This document shows positions 6,020-33,625 of a DNA stretch of 43,936 nt, in pieces. A program made the translations under genes and the position numbers. A model generated the notes under the pieces. It had not been told where the DNA came from and did no database searches. It was given only the letters and a program-made list of their open reading frames with translations. Within the stretch, counting starts at the first letter, position 1; the number at the start of each line of letters is the position of its first letter. This DNA is from a virus: IMG/VR virus record IMGVR_UViG_3300030118_003120, positions 1-43,936 of that record; one strand, 5' to 3'.

Positions 6020-8536
6020 TCACTCCAATTGTTCGTATAGTTTTGCTCTCGTTTCCCCGACCATAACTTGGTTGTAAGCCTTGGCCCATGCGTTGTATGC
6101 ACGAGCGTACAGGGTTTCGGGAGTCTTGACGAGTTCGCCGTTAAGGTAGTTGGCGACCACGGGTTCTGCGGCTTCTGAGGCGGCCACAGGTTCGGATGCT
6201 GGAACGGCTGGTGCCATTTCCACTTTTGGTTCTTCAACCACAGGGCGGGAGGCTTCCCACGATGCAATCATCGTGTTCAGCGTCTCGCTGGAAAAGTCTT
6301 CGTGTCCCTTGAGTCCAAGTTCGCTTGCCTTGTTAACAAGTGAAAGTCGGTCTTCTTCTGCTCGGGCTTCTTCTGCGGCCTCAAATTCAGCGATTCGTGC
6401 TTCTCGTAGAACGAGTTCTGCTTTGAGAGCCTCAAGTTCGGAGGCCATGTTGATTTCTTCGTCGGTCATTTTGCTCACCTTCGGTTGAATATCGCTACTA
6501 TCGGTTTGATACTTAAGCGTTGTTGATGCCTCAACTCTTTCAACTTTCTCAATGTTTGCCTCCCTATATGCGGGACGGTACACGATTGCGAGGTGGTCAA
6601 AGTCAAAATCGTCGGCAAACCACATGGTCGGCCGGCCACCTGCTTCCTCGGCCTCAATGACCTCCGAGGGAATGCCGGTTCCGCCGATAGAAACGCCGTA
6701 GTCTGAGCGCAGATAAAGACCTGACTCAAGTGCGGAGAACAACTCAGGGCGAACTACTTCGGCAACATAGCGGACAACATAGCCTCCTTTGCGGTCGTGG
6801 TAGGAGGCTTCGGTGACTTCTCCTACTACGGCTTCGTTGGTCCCGCCATCCATGTTGCGAGTGAACCGTCCCATTTCAGCCTTCGGGTGGTTGAGAGTGA
6901 CATCAGCGCCAACCATTTCTTTAGCAAGACGCTTTGCCAGCGCAGGACGAATGCCCCACTTGTTTTTGTTGACGCCGTTAGTGAATGCAACGCCGCTGAT
7001 TCGCATAATGGTCTTACCAGTGGAGGCTTCAATGCGGGTTTCAATTTCTTCAACCTCAACCTCACAAGTAACAGCGACACGAACACACTTGCCATCCTTC
7101 ATCTCCTTGCCGGGTGGGCAAGAATCCATGTGGTAAGATGCCTCCTTGTCCTTGTCCTTGTCGTAAGCGGCTTCCTTCTCAACCATTTTCATGTACTCTT
7201 CGTGAGATTCGCACGGCATGAAGTTGTCGCCATCACGGTGAATGCCCTTGCATCCCAACTCTTGAGCCCGTCCGCCTGCTTCACGAGGGTTGTCGTAGCG
7301 GTCCTTGCCAACTTCTTTTGCCTCAACAGGCTCGCCATCGCAACCGCAACCACAGCCTCCTTCTCCGGCCTCGGCGTGGTCTTTTTCGTCATGCGCTTCA
7401 TCTTGGTCTTTGAACTTGTGACCTTCGTGCGCCTTCATGCACTCATCTTTTGTGTAGCCCATGGCAGTGCATCTGTCCATGTACTCTTGATGTGTTTCAG
7501 TGCTTTTTGGTTTGGGCTCTGCGGCCTCAACCGACTCTTCATCTTCATAGAACTCTTCGTAAAATTCTTCGTAGTATTCCTCTTCCATGTTTTCACCGCT
7601 TGTGTATTGTGTGACTGATTTTCCACGCTCCCACATTTTGCATGACCAGTACCGGGCTTTGGTTTTAGGGCCGGGGTTGTCACAGTTATGTCGGGAACGG
7701 AAGTTGCGTCGTCGCTCAGGGTCGTCTCTTTTGATTTCCATGTTAGGGTCACCGAAGCGAACTATGACGACTTTGCCGCTTTCGTTTCTAACATATACGG
7801 CGAATTTTTTCGCCGCACCTCTTGTACGGAATGGTTTGTTGAGGGTGACCTTTCTGCCTTGGTACTCGGCGGCTTCCAACTCAACTACTGGTGCTTCAAT
7901 CCCCCAGTCTTCATACTCGGGGAAATCGTAGGTGAATGACTCTTCCTCAGCAGTCCCGGCCTTTTTACTACGAGGATGGGACTTGGGAAGAAGGTCATTG
8001 TCTTGCTTGTAGTTGGGGTTGGATGGACGGCCGTTGCGTAGTAGGTAAAGGAAGGCTTTGACTCTTGCGATACCCCATCCAGTTCTGCCCATGCCGGGTG
8101 CGTGGCTACGGCTGAAAGCACCAGCACCACGACGAAAGACAGACTTCAACGCCCCCATGCTGGCCTTTGACCCTTTGCCTTTTGCGGCCACCTTTTTGTT
8201 ATGCTCAGTCATCAACTTACGAATACGAGACTCCGTACCCTTGCTCATTTTTATGGACTTGTTGGGTTTCTTAGCGGAGCCCGGTTTGTTTTTCTTTGAC
8301 CCCTTGCGTCGCTCGCTTGGCTTGGCCGGCGTCTTTCGTGGGTCACGCTTTCCGGGTCGGCCGTACTGCAAAGCCTCTACCGTTTCAATAGTGGCGGTGT
8401 AGTCGCTGTCCTCAAAGGTGTTCATGCAAAAAGCGTACCTTTGGTCACGGTCGGGGAAATCCTTTGTTGATTTGCTGTCCGCCATGCAACGAGCGATGAA
8501 GTCTTTCTTCATTTCACCGTCACGAGGACTCGGCAT
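6020..8536 (-). CDS. Fused prohead protease and scaffold protein with accessory domains
   Basis: An 838-residue multidomain protein. In order: an N-terminal FIARCMADSK / FPDRDQRYAFC module, common in phage head proteins; a basic Lys/Arg linker; GWGIARVKAFLYLLRNGRP and NDLLPKSHP; a segment ending FRSRHNCDNPGPKTKARYWS; acidic and Cys-rich stretches (GGCGCGCDGE near residue 397); a protease-like domain at about 490-665 with candidate His in VTLNHPK (~548) and Ser in YGVSIGG (~615), as in S78-type prohead proteases; and from about 690 a charged coiled-coil scaffold with an Ala/Pro/Val-rich linker. It would cleave itself and remove scaffold during capsid maturation. Catalytic residues are assigned by eye. 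Confidence 0.9.
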   Translation of the reverse strand: MPSPRDGEMKKDFIARCMADSKSTKDFPDRDQRYAFCMNTFEDSDYTATIETVEALQYGRPGKRDPRKTPAKPSERRKGSKKNKPGSAKKPNKSIKMSKGTESRIRKLMTEHNKKVAAKGKGSKASMGALKSVFRRGAGAFSRSHAPGMGRTGWGIARVKAFLYLLRNGRPSNPNYKQDNDLLPKSHPRSKKAGTAEEESFTYDFPEYEDWGIEAPVVELEAAEYQGRKVTLNKPFRTRGAAKKFAVYVRNESGKVVIVRFGDPNMEIKRDDPERRRNFRSRHNCDNPGPKTKARYWSCKMWERGKSVTQYTSGENMEEEYYEEFYEEFYEDEESVEAAEPKPKSTETHQEYMDRCTAMGYTKDECMKAHEGHKFKDQDEAHDEKDHAEAGEGGCGCGCDGEPVEAKEVGKDRYDNPREAGGRAQELGCKGIHRDGDNFMPCESHEEYMKMVEKEAAYDKDKDKEASYHMDSCPPGKEMKDGKCVRVAVTCEVEVEEIETRIEASTGKTIMRISGVAFTNGVNKNKWGIRPALAKRLAKEMVGADVTLNHPKAEMGRFTRNMDGGTNEAVVGEVTEASYHDRKGGYVVRYVAEVVRPELFSALESGLYLRSDYGVSIGGTGIPSEVIEAEEAGGRPTMWFADDFDFDHLAIVYRPAYREANIEKVERVEASTTLKYQTDSSDIQPKVSKMTDEEINMASELEALKAELVLREARIAEFEAAEEARAEEDRLSLVNKASELGLKGHEDFSSETLNTMIASWEASRPVVEEPKVEMAPAVPASEPVAASEAAEPVVANYLNGELVKTPETLYARAYNAWAKAYNQVMVGETRAKLYEQLE

Positions 8537-12570: not shown

Positions 12571-13929
12571 TCAATCCTCGTGAACAACAGGGGCAAACAA
12601 AGAGCCGATGTAGCCCTCGTCTTTGTCAATGAAATAGGCGGCAAGCCCAGCAGTAGAGGTTGTGTAGCCCGAGCGAGCGTGGTAGCGGTCATGCCCTGCA
12701 AGGGATGGCATTTGTACGATAAGGCATCCGTCTTTTTCTGTTAGGCGCTGGTGATGCAAATGACCGTGGAACCACACTTTGTGAGTAGTCACACCCCACT
12801 GCTGACGAGCCTCAACAGCCATAAGACCAGCAAGGTTGGTCTTGCGAGACAAACCGTCGCCATGTGTAAAGCCAAGTAGCGTGTCGCCGTAGGTGAGGTA
12901 CTGTCTGTTGTTGGAACTGATTGTGATTGTGACATCATCTGCGTCCTCGTAAGCGGCCGATAGGTACATCATCAGGGCAATTGACGAATGGCGGTCATGG
13001 TTGCCGGGCATCATCACAATTTCAACTGGTGCTATTTGTCGCAGGAGGTCAATGTGTTCTCGGGCAAGACGGCATCCAGTTATGAGTATCTGCGCTGGTG
13101 AGGCGCACATGTCTTGGGGAGTGCCTTTCGTGGTTGTTCCGTAATCGTTGTCAACATGGAACCAATCGGAACCAGCACCAATGTACAACTTTTCGGGGGC
13201 GACGGGGATGCGCTCAATGAGACTTTGGGTTTTTTCAAACAACCTTTTGCGTGCTTCTTCAAAATCATAGGTTTCGCCCACTTCATCTGACCAGCCATAC
13301 TTGCCCCAGTGAAAGTCAGTAGGGCAAACAACAAGGGCATAGGGCTTGCTTGTCTTCTTCAACTTAAGGCGGGGCACACTCTTGGGCGCTTTTTCCAGCG
13401 AACCTTTCAGATAGTCCACCTGACTGAGGAGCGAACGCCACTTTTCAGCATCGTCCTTCAACTCTTTCTGCTCTCGCTTGAGAACTTTGACCTCAGTGCT
13501 GTAAATTTTGCGACTAAGGATAGTGTCAACGAGTTCATCCTCATCATGGTCAAGCACCTCTTCCATAGTGACAGGCTGACTGTTGCGGTTGATTTTGAAG
13601 GTGCGGCGCCATCGGTGAACAAATGCAGGTGATAAACCAATCATGCCGGCCATGGTGTTGACAGCAACACCGCTTGTGTACTGTTGCAGTAGTAGCCGGT
13701 GGTCATCACCGGACAGTTGGTGGACATGTGCGCCCATATCCATGTAGTAGCAGTCCTCCTCCTCATCATAGGTGTAGGCGACAGCGGTGTAGGCGGCGTG
13801 CTTTTGCAGGTAGAGACGCCAAGCATTGAGAGATTTTTCGGGATGCCTCTCTGCGATGTGTCGTGCCAGCGCCGAACGAGTAGCGAAGTCCTCGGGATTG
13901 TACAATTCAATGATTTCTTGTGGCTCCAT
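12571..13929 (-). CDS. HTH domain fused to calcineurin-like metallophosphoesterase
   Basis: A 452-residue protein starting MEPQEIIELYNPEDF. Residues about 15-56 form a small domain also found alone in the gene at 20861. A helix-turn-helix follows at about 86-113 (NTMAGMIGLSPAFVHRWRRT), then a charged coiled linker, then a metallophosphoesterase from about 197 with the family motifs in order: D205-x-H207 (PTDFHWGK), D255 (GSDWFHVDND), N310-H311 (MPGNHDRH), H356 (FTHGDG) and GHLHH at 389-393. The enzyme half should be a metal-dependent phosphodiesterase or nuclease. Being first in the packaging operon with an HTH suggests terminase-small-like DNA recognition. The start was chosen because a TATA box lies 28 nt upstream. 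Confidence 0.9.
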   Translation of the reverse strand: MEPQEIIELYNPEDFATRSALARHIAERHPEKSLNAWRLYLQKHAAYTAVAYTYDEEEDCYYMDMGAHVHQLSGDDHRLLLQQYTSGVAVNTMAGMIGLSPAFVHRWRRTFKINRNSQPVTMEEVLDHDEDELVDTILSRKIYSTEVKVLKREQKELKDDAEKWRSLLSQVDYLKGSLEKAPKSVPRLKLKKTSKPYALVVCPTDFHWGKYGWSDEVGETYDFEEARKRLFEKTQSLIERIPVAPEKLYIGAGSDWFHVDNDYGTTTKGTPQDMCASPAQILITGCRLAREHIDLLRQIAPVEIVMMPGNHDRHSSIALMMYLSAAYEDADDVTITISSNNRQYLTYGDTLLGFTHGDGLSRKTNLAGLMAVEARQQWGVTTHKVWFHGHLHHQRLTEKDGCLIVQMPSLAGHDRYHARSGYTTSTAGLAAYFIDKDEGYIGSLFAPVVHED

Positions 13930-13946
13930 TGGTAAGGGACTGCTCA

Positions 13947-13958
13947 CGCCACTTTATG
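13947..13958 (-). promoter_or_regulatory. Leaderless promoter of the packaging/virion operon
   Basis: On the minus strand this reads CATAAAGTGGCG and its first base is 29 nt from the ATG at 13929, the spacing expected when transcription begins at the start codon in Archaea. The sequence matches TATAAAGTGGCG before the DNA polymerase gene, so structural and polymerase genes may share a control class. Confidence 0.65.
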
Positions 13959-16603: not shown

Positions 16604-17197
16604 GCGTATTGCTTCGGCGTCAAACCCGAAGCCGAGGAAAACATACGCCCCAATGGCGGCCCTCCGGGGTCAAGTTGGGGGATGCGGCCGGCCACGGTTG
16701 TCTGCATCCGAAGCCAGCACACGCAACCCAAAAACCAAAATCTACGGGTGGCGGCTGAAACCGAATTTCAGCCCCGATTTAGTTCAAGCCTTCCCGTAGA
16801 ATCCGAGGGACCACATTTTCGGTCAAGCACGCAATCTTGAGACACTTCAAGGCGAGCCCCTGCGAAACAGGGCGATGATGAGACGGCACAACGAAACACC
16901 ACACCAAACAAGCAAACAAACGCTCTTTCATCTGCGACACTCAGCGACTTGATTCCGTGGTGAAGGACTTCATGGGTTGTACAGTCGGCACGACCGACGG
17001 GCAGATGTGCGAAGCCTCCACGGCACCGATAGGATGTTCTATGGCCTGTATTGAAACTGATGCAGGACTTAATCGGCAGTGGAGGCAGTTGGATGACAGC
17101 CGATAAATGGAGCAAGCCAGCGCCGCCCTCAGTGCGGCCCGACGCTTGAATTGATGGTTGAAAGGCTGTTATCCCCTCCCCGTCTCGTATGACGGGG
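16604..17197 (+). ncRNA. Candidate large structured non-coding RNA (~600 nt)
   Basis: The stretch has no credible gene but many nested complementary segments. GCGTAT 16604-16609 pairs with 16643-16648, enclosing GCTTCGG 16611-16617 with 16626-16632. GGATGC 16680-16685 pairs with 16704-16709. TCTACGGG 16741-16748 pairs with 16793-16800, enclosing GGCTGAAA 16753-16760 with 16766-16773. CCCTG 16858-16862 pairs with 16868-16872. GTCGG 16984-16988 pairs with 16994-16998. GCCTCC 17014-17019 pairs with 17081-17086, enclosing CCGAT 17026-17030 with 17072-17076 and CCTGTA 17045-17050 with 17061-17066. A 10-bp helix joins 17092-17101 and 17164-17173. A final hairpin CCCCGTC/GACGGGG (17178-17197) could terminate it. 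G-U pairs in two helices form only on the plus strand. I could not match it to RNase P, GOLLD or ROOL. Confidence 0.6.
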
Positions 17198-17340
17198 GGG
17201 TCGTTCTTCACCTGTGATTCACTTTCTCTTTCACATTGGGCGAGCCGTTATGAGCGGCGATGACCCCAGCACACAGTGTCTCCCGTCCTCGCTGGTCGGA
17301 AACACCGACAACGACGGGACTACATCGGAGGATGAAACAA

Positions 17341-19785
17341 ATGCAGAATGAAATGATGCAGAACGCAGACATGGACGGTGTCGGCTTCCTGCTCGGGATG
17401 CTATGGGTCTTTGGATTCATGGCGCTCGTGCTGGCCGCCTACATTGGACGAAGAACGAACGAACGCAAAGAGCAAACCTACGGGTACGAGTTGGAGGTCA
17501 TCAAAACCCTCCACGGTAACTCATCGGATGCGAACCACAGCCTTGCGAACTTCCTAACAAAAGTTCGTGGCAAGGGTGGTTGGAAAGCCTACTTTGAAGG
17601 CTACCACCACAACACGAGAACATACACAAAACTGGTGACGGATTCATCGTTGTCAGAAGGCGGTGTGGAAATCGTGTCGCCCCCTCTCAAGGGGGTCCGT
17701 CAACGGCGAAACTGGTTGTCCAGAGTTGCTGGCATGCTTGGTGGCTTGGTCCGGGTCAACCGAAGTTGTGGGGTTCATCTCCACCTCGGTCTGAAAGGCC
17801 CGGATGATGATTGGGACGACGAAGGAGTCATGTCCTATCAGACCGCCTGCATCATCGCCACCAAAACAAGCGTGCTTTACACGGTGTTTCAATCCGTGTT
17901 CAACTCGCTCGTACCCTCAAGCCGACACCACAACGACTACTCGGCCCCCAACAGGTATGTACTGGCTGAAGCCATCAATCATGTCGTCCACAACGGACAA
18001 GACCAGACTGATGAGTTGTGGTCGGAAACACTGTACATGTGGGCAAGGGACCGACGCTACTTCCATGTCAACTGTCAATCGCTCAGCCGCTACGGTACAA
18101 TTGAGTTCAGGCAACACGCCGGCTCAATCAACCCCGTGAAGTTGGACGCTTGGGCACAACTCATGTCCGCTTTGGTTGCCCGTGCCACCACGATTACCCA
18201 CGGCGAGATGCACTCCGTCTTGACCTTGGCTTCTCGTGAGGAGCGCATACTGCAACTGAGCGACCTCGCACACTTTTTGGGACTGTCTGAGAAGACGAAC
18301 CTCATCAAGTACTTCTCCCGCCGAGTGGATGTCCTTCGGGGCATCCCTCTCAAGGACAAATGCACCGAGTGTGCTCGTGAGACATGCGCTGGATGTATCG
18401 TCGGACCTCAGACCGACTGGGACGAGATGGACTACATTCTCCATGAGGATGAGGACTTCGCCGCCGAATACTACAACATGTCCGCTACTGTCTTGAGTGT
18501 GCTTGGCGCTCTGTGGGCTTTCGGTCCACTGGTCGCCGGCATCATGTTGCTTGTTGGTTGCGGCATTGGAGCAATCCATGGCCGTGGCAAGCAGTACAGC
18601 CAAGGCAAAACAGCACCGGCATTGTGGAACGCTTTGCAGGCCCGTGGCACACACGCCGCTGGCACTGTATGGCTTGACGACAGTTGCCTCAAGGACGGCA
18701 AGGCCCGACAGTACCTCTACATCAAGGACTCAGTACCGGCGGTTCAACTCTCACCTTCCCTCAAGCGTGAGGTGAGCAAAACCACATGGTGGCAGGTCTT
18801 TCACACAAGGTTCAGCACCCACGGTGCCAACACAGCCGACAACGCCCACCCACACTTCTCATCATGCCGACAAGTCGTGATGGTTCACAACGGTGTGGTA
18901 GGCAACTACGACGAGGTATGGCGTGCCATCAAGCGCAAGCCCACCGGCCCAGTTGACAGCCAAGCAGTCTGCGAGGCTCTCGCAGTCGGTGGCATTGACG
19001 AGGTCATCAAGCACTGTGTCGGTCCAATGTCCCTGATATGGGCCGACATGCGTGACCCTGCGGGCACTCTGCACTTTTGGACAAACGGTGAAAACCCGCT
19101 CCACTTCGGGCGACTGGACAACCCCTCGGGGGACATCATGGTCGCATCAACCGAAGCACTGTGGCTTGAGGCCGCAGGCAAGCGGGCCATCACTGAGTCT
19201 CGCCGAGTGCAAAAGACTCGCAAGGTACAACGCCGCAACAACCTCGGAGGACACGCATTGACTCGCTCCTACACTGTGACCGAAAAGGTCTTTGACCGTA
19301 GGGGCAAGCCGGTGATGACCACCGAGCAAGTTCCCGTCAACCACTGGGCCGCCGTCGTTGGCAAGCACTACACGATTTCGCCGGAAGGCAAGATTGACGG
19401 TGTGATGACCGACAACTGGCAGGACACAACTCGTGGCACAATGCTTTCATGGCGCTCCTACGCCAGCCCGCCTCGCAAGGCGAAAGGCAACAAGGACACA
19501 TGCACCATGGACGACTGCGTGTTGGTCGCCACCAACGCCGACATGCAACGGACCTTTGACCTGTGCGACGCCGCCGGTGGATGGCCAGTGTTTCAAGGCG
19601 CCAACGGCGACGAACTCCATGGCTACGACGCTGTGCTCCATGAGGGCATCAACCCCGACGGCACACGCTACCGCCTGCCACAGTACTGTCAACCTTGGAT
19701 TGACGACATTGACAAGCGGGAACTCCTCGTGGGCGACTACGAGAAGCAAGGCAAGTCGTGGGTTCTGGACGAGCAGTGGCTCTGA
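17341..19785 (+). CDS. Membrane-anchored amidoligase-glutamine amidotransferase (GAT-II) fusion
   Basis: An 814-residue protein (MQNEMMQNADMDGVGF at the start). GGAGG is 9 nt before this ATG, and longer frames start at 17332 and 17260. Order: transmembrane helix (~14-35); a GS-like amidoligase domain (Amidoligase_2 type) at ~46-285 with E50/E52 in GYELEV, E110 in GGVEIVSPP, H146/H148 in GVHLHLGL and E255/R257 in TIEFRQHAG; a four-Cys knuckle C341/C344/C349/C352; a second hydrophobic segment (~381-406); then a GlmS-type Ntn glutaminase domain from C407 (CGIGAIHGRG) with HTRFSTHG 488-495, HNGVVGNY 516-523 and D539; and a ~200-residue C-terminal extension. Glutamine-derived ammonia would feed amide formation on a carboxylate substrate, which is unknown. 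The glutaminase needs its Cys at the N-terminus, so cleavage before C407 is expected. It is a single-gene unit with its own 3' element. Confidence 0.9.
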   Translation: MQNEMMQNADMDGVGFLLGMLWVFGFMALVLAAYIGRRTNERKEQTYGYELEVIKTLHGNSSDANHSLANFLTKVRGKGGWKAYFEGYHHNTRTYTKLVTDSSLSEGGVEIVSPPLKGVRQRRNWLSRVAGMLGGLVRVNRSCGVHLHLGLKGPDDDWDDEGVMSYQTACIIATKTSVLYTVFQSVFNSLVPSSRHHNDYSAPNRYVLAEAINHVVHNGQDQTDELWSETLYMWARDRRYFHVNCQSLSRYGTIEFRQHAGSINPVKLDAWAQLMSALVARATTITHGEMHSVLTLASREERILQLSDLAHFLGLSEKTNLIKYFSRRVDVLRGIPLKDKCTECARETCAGCIVGPQTDWDEMDYILHEDEDFAAEYYNMSATVLSVLGALWAFGPLVAGIMLLVGCGIGAIHGRGKQYSQGKTAPALWNALQARGTHAAGTVWLDDSCLKDGKARQYLYIKDSVPAVQLSPSLKREVSKTTWWQVFHTRFSTHGANTADNAHPHFSSCRQVVMVHNGVVGNYDEVWRAIKRKPTGPVDSQAVCEALAVGGIDEVIKHCVGPMSLIWADMRDPAGTLHFWTNGENPLHFGRLDNPSGDIMVASTEALWLEAAGKRAITESRRVQKTRKVQRRNNLGGHALTRSYTVTEKVFDRRGKPVMTTEQVPVNHWAAVVGKHYTISPEGKIDGVMTDNWQDTTRGTMLSWRSYASPPRKAKGNKDTCTMDDCVLVATNADMQRTFDLCDAAGGWPVFQGANGDELHGYDAVLHEGINPDGTRYRLPQYCQPWIDDIDKRELLVGDYEKQGKSWVLDEQWL

Positions 19786-20170: not shown

Positions 20171-20260
20171 CATCACCCCCCAGTGATGCCACCTCCCCGA
20201 GGTGTACAACGGGCGGCCTCTCCCCAAGGGGAGGGGTCGCCCCCCCTTTTTTTTATTTTT
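20171..20260 (+). terminator. Triple-hairpin 3' element with T-run (copy 6, plus)
   Basis: CATCAC-CCCCCA-GTGATG (20171-20188), CACCTC-CCC-GAGGTG (20190-20204), TACAACG (20205-20211), a 15-bp hairpin between 20211-20225 and 20228-20242 with an AA loop, then T8-A-T5 (20247-20260). It is the clearest terminator in the window and shows what the related elements probably do. Confidence 0.85.
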
Positions 20261-21085: not shown

Positions 21086-21279
21086 GCGGCTTCAAGGCAA
21101 CCCGCAGGAGGGACGGTCTGTGCGAGCGTGTGGGCTGTGAGCATGTCGCCAAGGCAAGCCGCCCGTGGACTGTCAGCATTGACGGTGCCCGTGGGCGTAC
21201 CATCGCTCGGTTCTGCGCCGCCTGCCAAACCGAGTTGCGTACAGCCAAGGTTCTGCCCGTGTGGGAGGTGAGCCAGTGA
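21082..21279 (+). CDS. Zinc-ribbon protein, 65 aa
   Basis: A 65-residue basic protein starting MSGFKATRRRDGLCERVGC, with C14 and C19 and a later CAAC pair (about residues 45-48) that could bind one zinc. The ATG overlaps the upstream stop (ATGA) and its own stop overlaps the next ATG (TGATG), so it is the middle gene of a coupled trio. Base composition is GC-richer than the neighbours. Function unknown. Confidence 0.75.
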   Translation: MSGFKATRRRDGLCERVGCEHVAKASRPWTVSIDGARGRTIARFCAACQTELRTAKVLPVWEVSQ

Positions 21280-22652
21280 TGGAAACCATGCAAGTGCGAA
21301 TCGCCAGCGAGGCCCGGCCTGCCGTGGAGAAGACGGTCGCCCGGTTGGAGCGCATGCACCAGCGACGAGGACTGCTCTTTGCCGCCTCGTGGTCGGACGA
21401 GTACACCAAGACCCACCGCATCAAGCACAGCACCAAGCAGGTGCCCTTGGAGGGGACCATCCGGCAAATCACCCTGACCCGAGACTACCAGCCGCAAGGC
21501 GTCGCCCCACCTACGGAGCGACACGCCGACTTCCGGTATCACGACCTCACGCTGACCATGAGCCCGCTGTCGGACGACTGGGACTTGCTCTACACCGTCA
21601 GCCCTGCCGACCCCAACGAGCCGGACGGCTCCGAGGCCATCATCAAGCAGAACCCGCTCTCCGACGAGGAGCACGAGTACCCGACCCACTTCCACGACCA
21701 CTGCGACCACTGCACCAGCGGACGCCGTGGACGACACAAGACGATGACATTCCGCCACAAGGAGACGGGCGAGGTCGTCAGCGTCGGCTCTACCTGCGTG
21801 CTTGAGTACACCGGCATTGACCCCTCGCTCGTTGAGAGCATCCTTGAGTTCAAGGGCAAGGCCACGACACACGACTTTGACGCTGGGAAGCGTGGTGGAC
21901 AGCGCACGATGGGCACCTACGAGTTCGCCCTGCGTGCCTCCATGTGGCTTCACGCCAACGAGGGCTACACCCGAGGACTCGGGCACAACCTGTTCAACTA
22001 CGAACTCATCAAGCACCCGCAGACGGGGCAAATCGGCTTCGGCTACCGACAACTCGTGCCCAAGGCGTACATCATCGCCGCCCCTGCTGGCGGCATCACT
22101 GAGCCCGTGGACTTCCGCTGGCTTCGTGAGGACGAGCCCGTCGCACCCGAGGCCATCAGCCCGTCGGTGTTCACCGTTGCCGAGGCGTTCATGGACTACT
22201 GCCTCGGGCTCTCGGGGTCGTCGTCGTTTGAACACACCGTGCGGAACATCTTCAAGAGCGGCGTCGTGAGCGGCAAATCGTCAGCCATGGCTGGCGGTGC
22301 CCTCGCCGGCTACCTCAAGCACATTCAGCGAGAGGCTCGCAAGACCGCCGAGGTTGAGCGCAAGGCCGCCCGACCCGCAGGGAAGCACCTCGGGACCGTT
22401 GGTCAGCGTACCGACTTTGGCCCTGCCACCGTCGTCTTCGTGCGACGCATTGAGGGCTACTACGGCACGACCACGCTGACTAAGTTCCTCGCTGGGGACG
22501 ACACCCTCGTGTGGTTCCGCTCCGGCGACAAGAGCGACCTCAAGGTGGGCGACACCGTGAGCATCACGGGCACCGTGAAGAAGCACGACCAGTTCAAGGA
22601 CGAGAAGCAAACAGTCATCACCCGAGCCAAGTTCACACGAGGTGAGGAATGA
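21279..22652 (+). CDS. Phage-type protein with CDHC zinc motif and C-terminal OB-like domain
   Basis: A 457-residue protein starting METMQVRIASEARPAVEK. In the middle, HCDHCTSGRRGRHKTM, then a TGEVVSVGSTCVLEYTG segment, resembles a widely spread phage protein family with a CxxC finger followed by VGSTCL. The C-terminal ~85 residues (FGPATVVFVRRIEGYYGTTT, DLKVGDTVSITGTVKKH, KQTVITRAKF) look like an OB fold, suggesting single-stranded nucleic acid binding. Strong GC bias in third positions distinguishes it from most neighbours. The nucleic-acid role is inferred. Confidence 0.85.
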   Translation: METMQVRIASEARPAVEKTVARLERMHQRRGLLFAASWSDEYTKTHRIKHSTKQVPLEGTIRQITLTRDYQPQGVAPPTERHADFRYHDLTLTMSPLSDDWDLLYTVSPADPNEPDGSEAIIKQNPLSDEEHEYPTHFHDHCDHCTSGRRGRHKTMTFRHKETGEVVSVGSTCVLEYTGIDPSLVESILEFKGKATTHDFDAGKRGGQRTMGTYEFALRASMWLHANEGYTRGLGHNLFNYELIKHPQTGQIGFGYRQLVPKAYIIAAPAGGITEPVDFRWLREDEPVAPEAISPSVFTVAEAFMDYCLGLSGSSSFEHTVRNIFKSGVVSGKSSAMAGGALAGYLKHIQREARKTAEVERKAARPAGKHLGTVGQRTDFGPATVVFVRRIEGYYGTTTLTKFLAGDDTLVWFRSGDKSDLKVGDTVSITGTVKKHDQFKDEKQTVITRAKFTRGEE

Positions 22653-24870: not shown

Positions 24871-25217
24871 GTGAGCCCGTGTTCACACACACCACCGAGG
24901 AGTCCATGGTTATGGAGAACTCCTTCGGCACGGTCCGTGGCCCCGAGAAGTTAGTCATGGTGACCCGCATTTGGATGTGGAACCGTGATGGTACCGACCG
25001 AGGCTCGTTCACATGGGGCGCCGCCGACGGCTTGGGCGCCGAGCACTGGTACGCCGAGGGTGGCCTGTGGTTTGACGACCAAGGCTACCTCACGGACTTT
25101 GACGGGGTCTATGACCTGCCACCTGCCGCCATCAAGTGGCTGTACGACGAGGGACGACTGACCCAGTGGTACATTGACATGTGGGTGCAGTCGGGACGAT
25201 TGGAGGTGAGCGAGTGA
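24867..25217 (+). CDS. Hypothetical aromatic-rich protein, 116 aa
   Basis: A 116-residue protein starting MSEPVFTHTTEESMVMENS. It is rich in Trp, Tyr and Gly in its second half (MVTRIWMWNRDGTDRGSFTW, EHWYAEGGLWFDDQGYLTDF), which suggests a compact beta domain, and it ends in a helix (AIKWLYDEGRLTQW). The ATG overlaps the preceding stop (ATGA) and the stop overlaps the next GTG (GTGA). No family recognised. Confidence 0.75.
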   Translation: MSEPVFTHTTEESMVMENSFGTVRGPEKLVMVTRIWMWNRDGTDRGSFTWGAADGLGAEHWYAEGGLWFDDQGYLTDFDGVYDLPPAAIKWLYDEGRLTQWYIDMWVQSGRLEVSE

Positions 25218-25771
25218 ACATTTTCGTTTTGGACGAGTCACCTTTGCATGCGGCAAGGATGGTCTGTGACTCTCACACGGTGAAAATGCCGGTGGAGGGG
25301 GTGCAGATGCTTGTTCAGGCGTTGCTGACCAACGGTGCCCCGCACAACAAGATGCCGCTCACCAAGAAGCACAACAAGCCGCACCGTGGCGGCTATCCAG
25401 CGCATCCGTGTACCCTGTGGGCCGGAGCGTCAGCCGGCAACTGGGTGTGGCTATACCTCCACACTCGTGAGTTGTGTAAGGAGTACACCAAGCGATACGG
25501 CAAGACTCACTTCGCCGAGGGCCAACTTGCCCAGTTGAGGGACAACTTGGACTGGGGGCGCTACTTCAAAAAAACACAGAGGACGCCGTTCGTGAGAGCA
25601 ATCAACCAGTCGCAGAATCGCAACCTTGACCTCCTCAGCGAGGACATCACAGCGGTTTCAGCCTACCGTAATTTCTATGTGCGGGAGAAGGCACGCTTCG
25701 CCAAGTGGGAGAAGGGCACTGAGCCGCCGAAGTGGTGGCCCATCCCTGACTGCAAGGAGGCGAGCAAGTGA
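25214..25771 (+). CDS. Conserved phage family protein (NIFVLDE...CDSHTVKM type)
   Basis: A 185-residue protein with a GTG start overlapping the previous stop. The start NIFVLDESPLHAARMVCDSH followed by TVKMPVEGVQMLVQAL and HPCTLWAGASAGNWVWLYLH closely follows the pattern of a protein family common in marine and T4-like phages (MNIFVL..P..AA...CD.H..KM..E..QML), sometimes annotated as pyrimidine-dimer-glycosylase-like. The later AYRNFYVREKARFAKWEKG and PKWWP also fit. The activity of this family is not established to my knowledge, so I leave the function open. Confidence 0.85.
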   Translation: MNIFVLDESPLHAARMVCDSHTVKMPVEGVQMLVQALLTNGAPHNKMPLTKKHNKPHRGGYPAHPCTLWAGASAGNWVWLYLHTRELCKEYTKRYGKTHFAEGQLAQLRDNLDWGRYFKKTQRTPFVRAINQSQNRNLDLLSEDITAVSAYRNFYVREKARFAKWEKGTEPPKWWPIPDCKEASK

Positions 25772-32613: not shown

Positions 32614-33266
32614 TTATTTTTGCAGAGGACGACGCCAAGTACCGCACCGGCGACCACATCGTGATGTACGGAGACATGACTGTTTCACCAACGGTGGAGG
32701 GCACGACATTCATTTACCATACTGACAAGTTCACCGAAAAGGACGCTATCATGTGGGCTCCCATCATCCCTCACCGCATGGTCATCGTGGGCAAGTTGCC
32801 CAAGTTGACGAAGGCCAGCGAGCACTGCGTCATCGTTGACCAGCAGGTCAAGATGAAGCAAGACTACTCCCGCTCTATCCGTGCCGCCCTGTGCTGGGCT
32901 GACAGGGACCGGGCTCATCGTGCGCTGTCGGCTGTCCCTGTCCCACTCGCTAACGCCTTCGTGCGTGTCAATGTGCAGGACATTAAGTTGGGCCGTCTCT
33001 TGGCCCAGTGCAAGTTCACTGTACACGATGATTACATCAAGGCGGCAATCGCCTACGGTGTGTCCCCGGTCCGCAATTTCAAGTGGCCTCCTAAGTCCAA
33101 CCGAGCCCTTGATATACTGCCGATGGGTATGAGACAAACAGACAAGCACTTGGACATCATCGTCAACAATGACTTGGTGGTATCAAATGAAGTTCGCACT
33201 CATCAAGCGGACGCTTTGCCCAAGGGCTTGCCGAAAAAACAACAAGAGGTGATTACATGGCTATGA
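32604..33266 (+). CDS. Hypothetical protein, 220 aa
   Basis: A 220-residue protein starting MGVIIFAEDDAKYRTGDHI. The N-terminal half is beta-rich (MYGDMTVSPTVEGTTFIYHT, MVIVGKLPKLTKASEHCVIV). The middle has a helix (SRSIRAALCWADRDRAHRAL) and a DIKLGRLLAQCKFTVHDDYI segment that could be a small helical domain. It could be a partner of the clamp loader or polymerase given its place, but no motif supports that. Its end overlaps the cyclotransferase-like gene. Confidence 0.75.
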   Translation: MGVIIFAEDDAKYRTGDHIVMYGDMTVSPTVEGTTFIYHTDKFTEKDAIMWAPIIPHRMVIVGKLPKLTKASEHCVIVDQQVKMKQDYSRSIRAALCWADRDRAHRALSAVPVPLANAFVRVNVQDIKLGRLLAQCKFTVHDDYIKAAIAYGVSPVRNFKWPPKSNRALDILPMGMRQTDKHLDIIVNNDLVVSNEVRTHQADALPKGLPKKQQEVITWL

Positions 33267-33625
33267 CAAAATTATTTGTGTACGGAACATTGAAGCGAGG
33301 GCACGGCAACCACCGTGCCTACTTGAAGAATGCACGCTTCCTCGGCGAAGCGAAGACCCATCGTAAAATGTGGGGACTGGTGGACTTGGGTGCTTTCCCA
33401 GCCATGACCTACGACGAGTTGCAGGTAGAGGGCGAGGTGTACGAAGTCACAGAATCAGAACTGGCGAGTATTGATTCGTTGGAGGGACTGGACAGCGGAC
33501 TATACTCACGGCATACCATTGAAGTTGACATTGACGGCGAGACGCATGACTGCGACACCTACTTGATGTTTTCAGTTCAGATGCTCGCCAGTCTTCAAGA
33601 CCAAGAGCGCAAGGCGGTGTGGTAA
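33257..33625 (+). CDS. Gamma-glutamylcyclotransferase-like (AIG2/GGCT) protein
   Basis: A 122-residue protein with the GGCT-fold signature: FVYGTLKRGHGNH (nucleotide-independent substrate loop with YGTL), ARFLGEAKT, LVDLGAFPAM, VEGEVYEV with the catalytic Glu in EGEVYEV-type position, and SIDSLEGLDSGLYSR. The length is normal for the family. Such enzymes split gamma-glutamyl amines or peptides to 5-oxoproline, and others have regulatory roles. GAGGTG lies just upstream of the ATG. It may be linked to the amidoligase fusion of this virus, which would make amide bonds. That link is inference. Confidence 0.88.
   Translation: MAMTKLFVYGTLKRGHGNHRAYLKNARFLGEAKTHRKMWGLVDLGAFPAMTYDELQVEGEVYEVTESELASIDSLEGLDSGLYSRHTIEVDIDGETHDCDTYLMFSVQMLASLQDQERKAVW

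Follow-up and report, generated by a model that had tools for sequence, protein, structure and literature searches.

A single-chain amidoligase and class II glutamine amidotransferase, probably membrane-associated, conserved in a clade of marine tailed viruses with a likely archaeal host

A stretch of viral DNA of 43,936 nucleotides (IMG/VR record IMGVR_UViG_3300030118_003120; "the window") carries a gene in which an amidoligase with a glutamine synthetase (GS) fold and a class II glutamine amidotransferase (GAT-II) are joined in a single chain, and this fusion is a real, conserved core gene of a clade of marine tailed viruses. The module of amidoligase and GAT-II, with or without a gamma-glutamyl cyclotransferase, is already known in the form of separate bacteriophage genes; the novel features are the joining of both domains in one chain, a hydrophobic stretch conserved near the N-terminus and another one that ends exactly at the catalytic Cys. 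The reading we favor, with a probability of slightly less than 0.6, is that of a membrane-tethered, glutamine-dependent amidoligase that would be processed at Cys434 and be assisted by a cyclotransferase partner. In such an enzyme, the GAT-II domain would hydrolyse glutamine at Cys434 with release of ammonia; the GS-fold domain would activate a carboxylate, probably a gamma-glutamyl one, with ATP; and the ammonia (or another amine) would be joined to that carboxylate, giving an amide on a substrate that is either bound to the envelope or a protein. The segment ending at Cys434 would act as membrane anchor and propeptide, cut by autoprocessing or by a host protease to leave a free N-terminal Cys, and the viral cyclotransferase would probably remove or recycle gamma-glutamyl amides of the same pathway. 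Within this scheme, it is the ammonia channelling, the membrane location, the cleavage, the substrate and the biological purpose that we infer.

The fused gene is a single unbroken open reading frame on the + strand (17260..19785; 841 amino acids), delimited by the ORF, its Pfam and PHROGs matches and 21 fused homologues. A preliminary description of this DNA had placed a set of amidoligase and glutaminase motifs in one protein of 814 residues starting at 17341. Every motif quoted there is indeed present in the one chain, but the proposed start is 27 codons too late, because the N-terminus of the longer reading frame is conserved in the relative L002 from residue 9. Translation appears to start at about the ATG at 17260, or slightly downstream. 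The protein matched Pfam Amidoligase_2 (PF12224) at 3.3e-12 (47.3 bits against a curated cut-off of 22) and GATase_6 at 1.8e-12 (47.8 bits against a cut-off of 27); in PHROGs, it matched an amidoligase (7.6e-20) and a GFAT-like GAT-II (1.5e-22). Its C-terminal extension (19231..19782, + strand) contains an HGYD motif and is conserved in part among the fused homologues. Upstream of the gene, there is a hairpin (17175..17200, + strand) that is a consensus match only, near the expectation from shuffled sequence; downstream, a 14-pair hairpin followed by a T-run (20211..20253, + strand) resembles a terminator. A full-length model, with 19 fused homologues as input, was of moderate confidence only (mean pLDDT 72, pTM 0.44); as pLDDT fell below 50 over residues 380-432, we claim no arrangement of the domains.

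The amidoligase domain (residues 73-359; 17476..18336, + strand) was defined by the Amidoligase_2 match, its invariant residues and a structural model searched with Foldseek. Glu77, Glu79, Lys124, Asp128, Glu137, His173, His175, Arg222, Arg266, Glu282, Arg284 and His286 are invariant in the 19 aligned fused proteins, in which Ser140 and Asn271 each show a single exception, and the GS-like Glu/His/Arg catalytic set is invariant or nearly so in alignments of 9, 19 and 49 members. A model of this domain built from 49 sequences reached a pLDDT of 91. In the PDB, it most resembled YbdK, glutamine synthetases and GmaS, though modestly so (E 3e-4 to 3e-3; query TM, about 0.4; Foldseek probability near 1); a profile of the domain gave no match at E 10 against the sequences of solved structures. 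Judged by the predicted structure, the N-terminal catalytic domain has the GS fold and is a probable carboxylate-amine ligase, as the preliminary description had proposed. The two outcomes named there as arguments against this assignment were looked for: the predicted fold was that of an amidoligase, and the Glu/His/Arg set was retained across homologues. GS and GmaS take free ammonia or an amine. YbdK/GCS2, glutamine synthetase and GmaS have the fold in common with the viral domain but are only about 10-16% identical to it and lack a fused glutaminase. Following the domain is the Cys4 knuckle noticed earlier, a zinc-knuckle-like motif recognized in the sequence (CTECARETCAGC; 18361..18396, + strand); its first three Cys are kept in 18 of 19 fused proteins, and the fourth is displaced by indels.

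The GAT-II (Ntn glutaminase) domain (18559..19230, + strand) was assigned from the GATase_6 match, its invariant residues and Foldseek. Cys434, Arg517, Thr520, His521, Asn544, Gly545 and Asp566, the catalytic set, are invariant in the 19 fused proteins, and the corresponding part of the full-length model matched GFAT and the glutaminase domain of GlmS (1xff, target TM 0.69), in agreement with the GAT-II fold expected from the motifs. The GlmS/GFAT glutaminase domain thus shares fold and catalytic residues with the viral domain. GlmS, however, has an N-terminal Cys and an SIS isomerase partner, whereas the viral protein has an amidoligase as partner and its Cys comes after a hydrophobic segment.

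For catalysis, Ntn glutaminases rely on an N-terminal Cys whose amino group is free. Cys434 is internal as translated, in the context [LIVT]V[GN]-CGIG, with the preceding residue being Gly or Asn and never Met in the fused proteins. The unfused viral GAT-IIs that we checked start with Met-Cys-Gly (L021, described below, excepted), so that removal of Met exposes the nucleophile. Since Cys434 is not N-terminal, proteolytic release is presumably needed; a cleavage immediately before it would give a free N-terminal Cys. An internal translation start was rejected: a Met five residues upstream of the Cys occurs in the window and L015 and is not conserved. With the nucleophile N-terminal in 0 of 21 fused proteins and Gly or Asn in the place of Met, the Cys might instead stay uncleaved; GAT-II would then have a structural or regulatory role, or would be an amide-removing amidase, and the amidoligase would use another amine. 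We consider this unlikely, as invariance of the catalytic residues checked is unexpected for a dead domain, and the propeptide-bearing GAT-IIs of B. subtilis PurF and glutamate synthase are known to cleave themselves.

Employing hydropathy as the only criterion for membrane segments, we located the two hydrophobic segments that had been noticed before. Segment 1 (predicted TM1; 17380..17445, + strand) has a hydropathy of 2.38 over 19 residues, and segment 2 (predicted TM2/propeptide; 18481..18558, + strand), which ends at the catalytic Cys, one of 2.2 over 19 residues. Segment 1 is found near the N-terminus of all fused homologues and is followed by positive residues on its C-terminal side; segment 2 lies directly before the Cys in 21 of 21 fused proteins and contains a conserved Pro423 (18 of 19). 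In one contig (L021, 7686-10066), the amidoligase and GAT-II are encoded by separate, overlapping genes. The separate amidoligase retains a hydrophobic segment of its own, and at the start of the GAT-II there is still a hydrophobic leader, MLLSLLLPLAILVN-CGIG, ending at the Cys, which indicates that this segment belongs to GAT-II and is more than a linker. The fused enzyme is probably membrane-associated.

The charges also bear on topology. The positive residues after TM1 would put the amidoligase on the cytosolic side, where ATP is available. If TM2 crossed the membrane once, the charge bias would set GAT-II outside and the amidoligase inside, and ammonia channelling would be prevented; to be compatible with channelling, TM2 must be re-entrant, buried or cleaved. 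A re-entrant or kinked course of the segment would be in keeping with the conserved Pro. The same bias, which would set the C-terminal part outside, agrees with a lipoprotein-like export, in which [LIV]VGC would serve as lipobox and cleavage site and GAT-II would either carry a lipid or be set free outside the cell. A loose lipobox does fit most members. But in the alignment this Cys is the catalytic nucleophile, Asn precedes it in L069 and L021, and a fused protein would carry the signal in the interior of its chain, so that export of this kind is very improbable. Returning to the membrane-tethered amidoligase, we propose, tentatively and with clearly more doubt than for the enzyme as such, that proteolysis at the end of the membrane segment creates the Ntn Cys, that the ammonia-producing half would therefore be active only after membrane insertion, and that infection would routinely involve glutamine-dependent amidation coupled to the membrane of a host that is probably archaeal.

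Homologues were collected by scans of viral contigs and by profile searches; the first scans, with one and two fused sequences, reached only L002. In all, 21 distinct fused proteins were found on separate contigs (two of them L221 and L224), of which 19 were aligned; a chimera, a frameshift or an assembly artefact is thereby ruled out. None of 50,697 records of named phages covers 80% of the query, the fusion is absent from the 50 viral structures listed, and it was not seen in 30 loci from cellular genomes, all titled bacterial, a search whose coverage was limited by pattern seeding. A terminase-based scan, independent of the enzyme, returned 43 loci. Close relatives, with terminases identical to 69% or more, numbered 19 when only those with upstream sequence of at least about 8 kb were counted, and all 19 had the fusion at the same position, on the strand opposite to the packaging genes. 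Its presence at one place in all 19 clade contigs establishes it as a core gene. The more distant L241 and L243 (terminase 54% and 49% identical) lack the fusion within the available sequence. Where viruses have both an amidoligase and a GAT-II, the two are usually adjacent, and they are fused in one clade. The distance matrices of the two domains are correlated (r 0.83, 0 of 2000 Mantel permutations), with shared descent contributing to this value.

Several other genes were noted during these comparisons. A calcineurin-like phosphoesterase (window 12571-13947, - strand) adjoins the terminase and occurs in 18 of 19 clade loci compared; a pyrimidine dimer DNA glycosylase (PF03013, 8.7e-06; 25181-25771, + strand) is conserved in the clade; an 838-amino-acid protein with a DUF3721 domain (1.3e-11; 6020-8536, - strand) lies near the portal gene; and a PHROG 2319 protein (21261-22652, + strand) has a Tunturi_5 homologue annotated as a RecT-like annealing protein. 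Another record (L204, 1235-2779) encodes a terminase 100% identical to that of the window, on a contig too short to show the fused gene. In L179 (6025-7433), a short contig binned as Pseudomonadota and probably from a phage, amidoligase and GAT-II are adjacent.

Core status also bears on a metabolic role. For the combination of amidoligase, glutamine amidotransferase and gamma-glutamylcyclotransferase, the authors who described Phage-ZRK32 proposed a function in nitrogen metabolism (PMC10945688); applied here, the fusion would be an auxiliary gene whose product, soluble or peripheral, transfers nitrogen from glutamine to the amino-acid pools of host or virus. This seems quite unlikely: the gene is core to the clade and not sporadic, its membrane segments are conserved, and across the clade the fused protein is about 35% identical whereas the terminase beside it is about 83% identical, a divergence unusual for central metabolism.

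An archaeal host is likely, as the preliminary description had assumed, on indirect evidence from the replication and repair genes. The clamp loader of the window virus has its closest relatives among phage records in haloarchaeal viruses, and among solved structures its RfcS is most similar to archaeal RfcS (96 bits, against 45 for T4 gp44). For PolB, the nearest solved structure is a euryarchaeal PolB, although its best matches among phage records are cyanophages. An ERCC4 nuclease is present in eight relatives and, among the controls, in archaea only. Magroviruses (Magrovirales) are recognized by an archaeal-like primase and a genome of 90-110 kb (PMC12999244). In 14 records, possibly incomplete, we found no archaeal primase (PF01896), PCNA, MCM or thermosome (Cpn60), and the longest relatives are about 60 kb; membership of the magroviruses was rejected, and the virus is not a typical one.

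The enzyme may serve a more specific purpose by the same chemistry, namely modification of the host envelope or of a host protein that excludes other viruses. Modification of the cell wall with superinfection exclusion was proposed for phiEco32 (Iyer et al. 2009, as cited in PMC10580990), and the membrane anchor, the core status and the fast divergence of the fused protein fit such a role. Peptidoglycan, the target proposed in bacteria, is not expected in a probable archaeal host, and we regard exclusion as possible but rather doubtful.

Outside the fused gene, the favored reading of a membrane-tethered amidoligase draws on a second gene. A protein of 122 amino acids similar to gamma-glutamylamine cyclotransferase (GGACT/YtfP; 33257..33625, + strand; PF06094, 3.2e-24; YtfP/AIG2 relatives in the PDB) is encoded 13 kb from the fused gene, and such a gene occurs in 8 of 20 clade records, the window included. 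The window therefore encodes amidoligase, GAT-II and a GGCT-like protein, as in the phage module, and its cyclotransferase is a probable functional partner of the fused enzyme. No ATP-grasp match was found among the scanned proteins of the window (which is incomplete) and its relatives.

The phage amidoligase/GAT-II/GGCT module was reportedly described in 2009. In phiEco32, a YtfP/GGCT-like protein, an ATP-grasp enzyme, a GAT-II and an amidoligase-like gene lie near one another, and the LUZ24-like phage UFV-P2 has amidoligase, GAT-II, ATP-grasp and GGCT (PMC3890496). These phages have the amidoligase, GAT-II and GGCT-like kinds in common with the window virus but differ in their separate genes, the added ATP-grasp enzyme and bacterial hosts; in their Cronobacter and PJNS034 relatives, GAT-II starts with Met-Cys. 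The pair is also carried by OM43 phages (PMC10580990) and, together with GGCT, by Phage-ZRK32 (PMC10945688), and our literature search found no demonstrated substrate of the module and no activity measurement for the family. The fused form offers one polypeptide on which the module can be tested, and the conserved segment ahead of the nucleophile leads to a specific prediction of how the protein matures.

Among archaeal viruses, the haloviruses phiCh1 and ChaoS9 have a GAT-II without amidoligase (PMC8651126), and 'GlmS' has been reported in magroviruses (PMC10160649). Like the window virus, if its host is archaeal as is likely, phiCh1/ChaoS9 provide a GAT-II in an archaeal tailed virus, but theirs is small, separate and starts with MCW; no amidoligase was detected in the searched 50 kb of phiCh1. 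The best phage matches over both domains, at 28-31% identity, come from the Arthrobacter phages Salgado/Laroye and Ottawa, in which the two genes are adjacent and in the same order. In contrast to the fusion, they encode two proteins without hydrophobic segments, with the Cys right after Met. Bacteriophages usually encode amidoligase and GAT-II as two separate soluble proteins; that the pair has become a single core protein, apparently membrane-tethered, in probably archaeal viruses argues for a membrane-proximal substrate that is not specific to peptidoglycan.
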